DNA from: Parcubacteria group bacterium GW2011_GWD2_38_11
GTDB lineage: Bacteria > Patescibacteriota > Minisyncoccia > Moranbacterales > GWC2-37-73
Reading direction: 5' to 3'
Assembly: GCA_000992325.1 (NCBI GenBank)
Contig: LBTZ01000003.1
Coordinates: 1 to 47,534 of the forward strand
DNA length: 47,534 nucleotides
In this document: piece by piece, positions 25,179-26,375 of the stretch
Layout of the letters: each line of letters begins with the position of its first letter
Numbering within the stretch: position 1 is the stretch's first letter
Notes under the pieces: model-generated
What the model was told of the DNA's origin: nothing
The model's input: only the letters and a program-made list of their open reading frames with translations
Databases searched by the model: none
Made by a program: the position numbers and the translations under genes

Positions 25179-26375
25179 ATGCTTGCATTGATTTCTCAAA
25201 AAAATAATAGGCGTATCGGAAAGTTACACACTAAAAGCGGAGTTATTAATACGCCGTTTTTTATGCCGATTGCAACGAAGGGGGCGGTAAAAAATGTTTC
25301 ACCGGAAGATTTGCTAGCTATTGGGGCGGAAATTGTGCTTGGAAACACTTATCATCTTTGGCTTAGACCAGGTGATGATCTTATTGCGCGCGCAGGAGGA
25401 CTCCATAAATTTATGAATTGGAATGGTCCCATCCTGACTGATTCTGGCGGATATCAGGTTTTTTCTTTGGGGGCGCGAGCTAAGGAAAAATATGGATCCA
25501 ATGGTGTTAAGCTCAGTGAAAAAGGTGTGGAATTTGCAGATCCGTTAAATGGCAGTAGTCATTTTATGATGCCAGAAAAATCCATTGATATCCAACTTAA
25601 TTTGGGTAGTGATATTGTAATGGTGCTTGATGAATGTCCACCTTTTCCGTGTTCTCACGGCGATGCAAAAAAATCCTTGGAACTTACAACAAGATGGGCG
25701 GCTCGTTGCTTTAAGCATTTTCATAAAAAGGTGGCTGAAAATCAGGAAAAATATCCTAATGGTAGACCGCTTTTGTTTTGTATCGTGCAGGGAAGTGTCT
25801 ATGAAGATTTGAGGAAAGAGAGTGTGCGTCAATTGATGAATATTGAATTTTCCGCCCTGGGTGGACCAGTCTCAGGCTGGGATGGTTATGCAATTGGAGG
25901 TGTGGCTGTGGGAGAGCCTAGAAAACATCTTTACGAGATTCTGCGGTGGGTAGTGCCATATCTACCTGCTGACAAGCCGCGCTATTTAATGGGGTTGGGT
26001 AAACCTGAGGAATTGGTGGCTGCAGTGGAGGCTGGGATGGATATGTTTGATTGTGTGATACCTACGCGCGAGGGAAGACATGGGCGCCTCTTTCGATGGA
26101 AGAGAATTTCCAATTTCCAATTTCCAATTTCCAATGACAAGGAGGGAATTGATTTTAAAGGTGATTTTTACGAAACAATAAACATTAATAATGAGCAGTT
26201 TAAGGAGGATTTTACACCTATAGATTTGCAGTGCGATTGTTATACTTGTAAAAAATTTACCAAAGCATATCTCAATCATTTGCTTAGAACGGATGAGCCA
26301 TTTTTTTTGAAGCTTGCTTCGGTTCATAATTTGAATTTTTATCTTAAACTGATGGCACTTCTTCGAGAAGGGTAA
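25179..26375 (+). CDS. tgt: tRNA-guanine transglycosylase (queuine/preQ1 type)
   Basis: 398 residues. Swaps guanine-34 for preQ1 (or queuine) in GUN-anticodon tRNAs. Motifs: [37 protein letters not shown] (catalytic/substrate Asp), [34 protein letters not shown], and the C-terminal zinc site CDCYTC with a later His. An in-frame CAATTTC array supplies ISNFQFPIS (~309-318) between RHGRLF and the zinc site, where standard Tgt proteins have a short loop. No queuosine biosynthesis gene is nearby, so the base is probably salvaged or made elsewhere. Leaderless start predicted. Confidence 0.96.
26104..26136. repeat. In-frame heptamer array in tgt (CAATTTC x3-4)
   Basis: Nearly perfect CAATTTC units, read as [10 protein letters not shown]. 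Identical units form intergenic arrays at 22.9 kb and lie within argS. Confidence 0.85.

Follow-up and report, generated by a model that had tools for sequence, protein, structure and literature searches.

The window analysed here, a stretch of 47,534 nucleotides, is contig C3 of the source genome (G000; 936 kb in 39 contigs), and it carries tandem heptamers both between genes and inside them. The clearest genic case lies in tgt, where about 4.4 perfectly periodic copies of AATTTCC are translated within an uninterrupted ORF; a preliminary description of this DNA had reported an in-frame heptamer array here. The tgt array is far beyond chance: its periodicity score is 24, against a maximum of 13 in 100 Markov simulations. 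Nine period-7 segments with a score of at least 13 were observed in the window, versus 0.01 per window simulated from its own second-order Markov composition.

Table. Heptamer arrays, related insertions and their host genes in the 47,534-nucleotide window
Feature	Position	Strand	Remark
Intergenic heptamer array, AACTAAC class	1228..1275	.	
Intergenic inverted pair of heptamer arrays with core	11981..12098	.	
argS, arginyl-tRNA synthetase, host gene	15363..17009	+	
GTCATCA array in argS	15566..15592	+	residues about 68-77
AATTTCC array in argS, split by GC-rich palindrome	16670..16714	+	
Palindrome CCCTGGCCGGGCAGG nested within argS AATTTCC array	16683..16697	+	
Intergenic inverted pair, AACTAAC / GTTGTAA	17011..17104	.	
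Intergenic inverted pair, AATTTNN class	18522..18643	.	
Degenerate ACGAA-unit insertion in ileS, weak period 7	19352..19391	+	
Intergenic inverted pair, AATTTNN class	22941..23064	.	
tgt, queuine tRNA-ribosyltransferase, host gene	25179..26375	+	398-codon ORF
(AATTTCC)4AAT array in tgt	26105..26135	+	in frame, residues about 309-319
Intergenic inverted pair, AATTTNN class	32164..32283	.	
rlmN, host gene	43547..44629	+	
TTGAAAA array in rlmN, imperfect	44013..44043	+	residues about 156-166; in-frame TGA unit altered
Nonamer-class insertion in elp3, no heptamer array	46910..46945	-	
AATTTNN-class array at contig end, then start of core	47490..47520	.	partner arm not visible because the contig ends

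Similar in-frame arrays had been described for four other enzymes of the window. Two sites in argS and one in rlmN bear this out, the second argS array having 17 bp as its longest unbroken periodic run. The ileS case is weak, its ACGAA-containing units being irregularly spaced with a period-7 score of 7, and the insertion is species-specific despite this weak periodicity. The elp3 insertion does not belong here, as it scores 0 for period 7 and 9 for period 9, and falls into a separate ACTTTATAA nonamer family. On the same minus strand, elp3 holds two more in-frame, palindrome-encoded inserts (45956-46060 and 46238-46279) that encode CHSGLDPESS...FHGNDK and GSPPASLREALRAG, and the matches of most relatives break there.

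The survey covered the whole of G000, 897 kb of the congeneric genome G004, and the orthologous loci of five window genes in relatives. Arrays were called at a score threshold of 13, which misses degenerate or interrupted arrays and makes all counts lower bounds, and 'genic' is limited to ORFs of at least 150 amino acids because gene calling followed a greedy longest-ORF rule. On this basis the two genomes have 80 arrays inside ORFs (34 in G000 and 46 in G004) and 165 between genes; a ferredoxin of 93 amino acids also carries one. Seven is by far the prevailing period. Across G000 there are 109 period-7 segments and 0-6 for each other period from 2 to 13, save period 9 with 24, and within ORFs of at least 150 amino acids in the two genomes there are 73, versus 0-5 for each other period from 4 to 13. 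That a period which is no multiple of a codon prevails in coding DNA argues against repeats maintained at the protein level. Most of the 24 period-9 segments belong to the ACTTTATAA nonamer, a second repeat class of G000 that can likewise sit in genes. Reading of sequence motifs suggests that the other hosts include PrmC, TsaE, the CCA-adding enzyme, ValS, GltX, a DNA ligase and glycosyltransferases.

The arrays extend well beyond this genus. Public contigs yielded 140 exact (AATTTCC)4 arrays, 88 of them within ORFs of at least 150 amino acids, a share that is not representative of all units because this one is stop-free on both strands. The records with titles are mostly from Patescibacteria and include Nitrospirae, Bacteroidales, Chloroflexi, Planctomycetes and others, and one contig of a filamentous cyanobacterium. 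We found no description of such arrays in CPR/Patescibacteria in the open-licence literature.

Since 7 leaves a remainder of 1 when divided by 3, three successive units visit all frames, and a stop codon carried by every unit must strike the reading frame. The genic arrays bear the mark of this constraint: the coding strand of the unit is free of stops in 69 of 80, compared with 124 of 330 intergenic strand orientations (p = 1e-15). Where a unit is stop-free on a single strand, that strand is the coding one in 29 arrays and the opposite one in 9 (p = 0.0017), and units with stops on both strands account for 4/80 genic versus 71/165 intergenic arrays. In rlmN, the unit that would put TGA in frame is altered. 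What preserves the frame is the length of the whole insertion, a multiple of three, and not that of the array. The proposal that arrays grow by 21 bp, or three heptamers at a time, finds no support: no 21-bp steps were seen, and a length mode of 30-32 bp (about 31 bp), found in genes and between genes alike, does not fit such growth.

The units are far fewer than expected of arrays arising from local sequence. The 80 genic arrays fall into 33 unit classes, a figure in which sites common to G000 and G004 are counted twice, whereas sampling stop-free heptamers from coding DNA 500 times always yielded at least 65; G000 alone, where no site is counted twice, has 17 classes against at least 28 in the null draws. 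The preliminary description had taken the genic arrays to be the same as those between genes, which agrees with the shared length mode and with the 53 of 80 genic arrays whose unit class also occurs in intergenic arrays, but fails for the architecture. An inverted partner arm lies within 160 bp of 102/165 intergenic arrays, compared with 140/982 in a random intergenic control; in genes the figure is 14/80, no different from the control rate (14%), and the genic copies are thus mostly single arms. The commonest intergenic class is built arm-core-arm over about 110 bp, with a semi-conserved core between the arms. Lacking the core and the second arm, the genic arrays do not simply reproduce the intergenic element. 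Between convergent genes, arrays of the two genomes are under-represented (7/160 versus 139/1116 gaps, p = 0.001), and a role as terminators was rejected on account of this avoidance.

The array-encoded residues are insertions relative to solved homologues and relatives. When 30 Tgt orthologues are aligned, this part of the protein forms a hypervariable loop between the conserved RHGRLF.W and FYETINI motifs, and the loop of another congeneric genome, G001, has no array. Solved Tgt chains bridge query residues 305/308 to 334 with only 2-5 residues, and the solved RlmN/Cfr homologue is without the segment encoded by the rlmN array. AlphaFold models of Tgt (mean pLDDT 87.5, with a Foldseek match to Z. 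mobilis TGT) and RlmN (mean pLDDT 85.3) place the array peptides in predicted flexible loops, with pLDDT below 50 at Tgt 311-324 and RlmN 155-159, overlapping those peptides; the loop location is established, at the level of such models, for tgt and rlmN. The view that housekeeping enzymes have received insertions between conserved motifs with the frame left open therefore stands. The alignment and structural mapping that the preliminary description had called for are in keeping with it, and the finding that it had named as fatal to its view, the same residues in distant orthologues, did not turn up in solved Tgt or RlmN/Cfr.

Some of these loops appear to have been filled repeatedly. For the five enzymes, with about 30 relatives each, 42 arrays lie in five focal loops (one each in tgt, rlmN and elp3, and two in argS) versus 9 elsewhere, the latter including ileS and one N-run; because the focal loops were picked for their repeats in G000, the arrays of G000 itself are not independent evidence. 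In the relatives the same loops hold heptamers whose units differ by species, nonamers, GC-rich palindromes, palindromes encoding CHPELVSGS...LKQVQHD-like peptides, or nothing. Given this variety among relatives, from a changed unit or an unrelated repeat to an empty position, the loops look like tolerated landing sites for repeat DNA that is spreading. The unit changes between congeneric species: by hand count, G000 and G004 share 22 array-bearing genic sites, 6 with the same unit, 2 with close variants and 14 with different units. Intergenic sites behave alike; at C21:2350 and C21:2806, for instance, G000 and G004 have hairpins of different families between flanks that are 93-96% identical.

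Repeats also enter repeats. The prmC array of G000 contains a nested, exact 36-bp palindrome that is absent from G004 and has no target duplication. GC-rich palindromes nest in frame within arrays in argS of the window (16683-16697), near 19782-19818 of contig C1 of G000, and in tgt of the relative G012, as if the arrays were preferred landing sites.

The explanation that we favour, and consider probable, is that proliferating repeats insert throughout this genome, are filtered by reading frame, stop codons and loop tolerance, and refill a few permissive loops. Insertion, the stop filter, the re-use of sites and the unit classes common to genic and intergenic arrays are what we observed. The arrays would be short proliferating repeats of about 31 bp, or roughly 4.4 heptamer copies, in several recurring unit classes, landing genome-wide and presumably spreading as units; between genes they would persist mostly as inverted pairs, and inside genes mostly as single arms. 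A genic insertion would survive only if the total change in length kept the frame, if the unit were stop-free in the coding direction or the in-frame stop were mutated, and if the peptide fell in a flexible surface loop. Because few permissive loops would be available and re-used, the corresponding loop of a relative would be empty or hold a palindrome, a nonamer or another heptamer. The array peptides are probably translated and near neutral. As to a mobiliser, searches of G000, G004 and the 100%-complete G001 returned no Y1_Tnp (PF01797), DDE_Tnp_1 (PF01609) or RVT_1, and no rve (PF00665) over the cut-off; likewise, no consistent target-site duplication was seen at the empty/filled pairs inspected by eye or at the nested 36-bp insert. 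One observation is not predicted by simple insertion: at rlmN and one prmC site, the heptamer differs between species in every unit, in register, with the flanks intact.

How one unit comes to be exchanged for another bears on the alternatives. The strongest of these, which we regard as possible though on balance unlikely, is that most switching occurs when part of a gene is homologously replaced by the corresponding part of a diverged allele with another array. Support for such events comes from argS: outside the first 90 codons or so, which hold different heptamers, the genes of G016 and G017 share 96-100% identity, and argS of G004 is a mosaic whose array-bearing N-terminus matches that of G005 at 90-94%. 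Switched sites also have lower identity in the near flank (0.79) than unswitched ones (0.85; p = 0.02). At most switched sites, however, divergence in the near flank does not exceed that found elsewhere in the gene, and some have intact flanks, as at prmC site 1, where identity is 0.87 near the array and 0.77 farther away. Allele replacement explains part of the switching; as a general cause it was rejected, support being found at argS only. The argS genes are recombination mosaics, the middle of the G004 gene being strongly diverged between native-like ends.

Slipped-strand expansion of heptamers in situ would have 7-nucleotide steps favoured (an idea based on the polymerase footprint is cited in PMC4692102), arrays arising anywhere, and unit changes spreading by more slippage. 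It would account for a period of almost exactly 7 in near-perfect arrays, and for the sites in rlmN and prmC where all units differ in register. Same-unit arrays shared between species, which are as identical as their flanks or more so (33/33 positions in tgt, with flanks at 84%), are in keeping with it as well. Against slippage, a small set of unit classes turns up again and again across unrelated genes, genera and phyla, the length has a mode near 31 bp, the intergenic arrays are inverted pairs with a core, and unrelated palindromes enter the identical loops. We therefore judge slippage improbable as the origin of the arrays. It may nevertheless contribute to the in-place change of units at rlmN and the prmC site, which is the least explained part of these observations. 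A bolder and still less likely reading is that some process preserving length, period and position, but not sequence, rewrites or replaces the 31-bp arrays where they stand, whether in a coding loop or in an intergenic hairpin; if true, CPR bacteria would possess a repeat-maintenance activity of a new kind.

It is very improbable that the arrays are selected nucleic-acid signals, such as sites for a regulatory protein or RNA, with the genic copies forming part of a network. The intergenic arms can pair, and heptamer repeats of Beggiatoaceae have been proposed as regulator-binding sites (PMC4679880), but the units here vary freely and switch at orthologous sites, and the host genes are unrelated to each other. 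Mismatches between arms show no visible enrichment of G-U pairs, and a search of the arrays against Rfam gave no match, so that constraint on the arms at the RNA level was rejected. Ancestral or functional protein sequence, for instance adaptive linkers, would suit the position between conserved motifs and the preserved frame, and is contradicted by segments that are missing from solved homologues, absent or different in close relatives, modelled as low-confidence loops, and built from unit classes also found between genes.

If insertion followed by filtering is the right explanation, loop insertions in CPR housekeeping enzymes mostly document repeat insertions that were tolerated, and ought not to be taken for adaptations. 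Several repeat families that independently reach the same permissive loops would provide a natural map of insertion-tolerant sites, covering aminoacyl-tRNA synthetases and enzymes that modify tRNA and rRNA. The arrays also constitute a large comparative dataset on the long-noted, unexplained excess of heptamers in bacteria, with which the questions of why 7 nucleotides, why about 31 bp, and how units are exchanged at fixed sites become directly testable.

The closest functional parallel is with the Rickettsia palindromic elements (RPEs), repeat DNA found between genes and in frame within conserved enzymes (PMC2229807). The likeness drawn in the preliminary description holds in so far as the arrays also occur in both settings and are tolerated, probably as near-neutral additions. 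It breaks down in form, in a comparison of architecture made from published descriptions: RPEs are palindromes of 105-146 bp, whereas most genic arrays consist of one arm only, measuring about 31 bp, with a 7-nucleotide period and several interchangeable unit sequences. As the genic copies fail the palindrome feature, we do not file them as RPEs, although they work like one. For gmk, an RPE insert has been reported to be translated within an enzyme that stays active. The GC-rich palindromes, which relatives have in these loops and which also nest in arrays, recall REP/RAYT elements and MITEs; inverted arms, which might be compared with the terminal inverted repeats of MITEs, are present in most intergenic copies (102/165) and not in the genic ones. 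Unlike either system, G000, G001 and G004 have no RAYT (PF01797) match over the cut-off, and no target-site duplication was seen.

Among heptamer repeats, an excess of which is known in bacteria but little studied (PMC4692102), the arrays resemble the heptanucleotide STRR-type repeats in their tandem degenerate 7-nucleotide units, present in few copies, with a length mode of 31 bp. In marine Beggiatoaceae, TAACTGA occurs as direct repeats of 2-6 copies, and the restriction of reading frames by its stop codons was recognised (PMC4679880). The present arrays share both the direct heptamer repeats and the frame restriction, yet TAACTGA is one unit, mostly intergenic beside start codons, whose copies in ORFs lie chiefly at protein termini or within hypothetical proteins (PMC4679880), whereas here many units lie inside conserved enzymes. 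The GGGAATC / GGGGA(C/T)T repeats of Xanthomonas and Nostoc form arrays that prefer four units, are sometimes inverted and vary in sequence at conserved sites (PMC4692102), all of which is matched here; those repeats form G-quadruplexes and are under-represented on the coding strand in ORFs (PMC4692102), whereas the present units are AT-rich without G-tracts. A near precedent for the exchange of units is the P6b region of the Nostoc trnL intron, in which degenerate heptamers of class I or II form the stem arms and one class has repeatedly replaced another (PMC4476775). Heptamer design and class replacement at one site are common to both, but what is confined to one intron stem-loop in Nostoc takes place, in this CPR genus, in many coding loops and intergenic sites.
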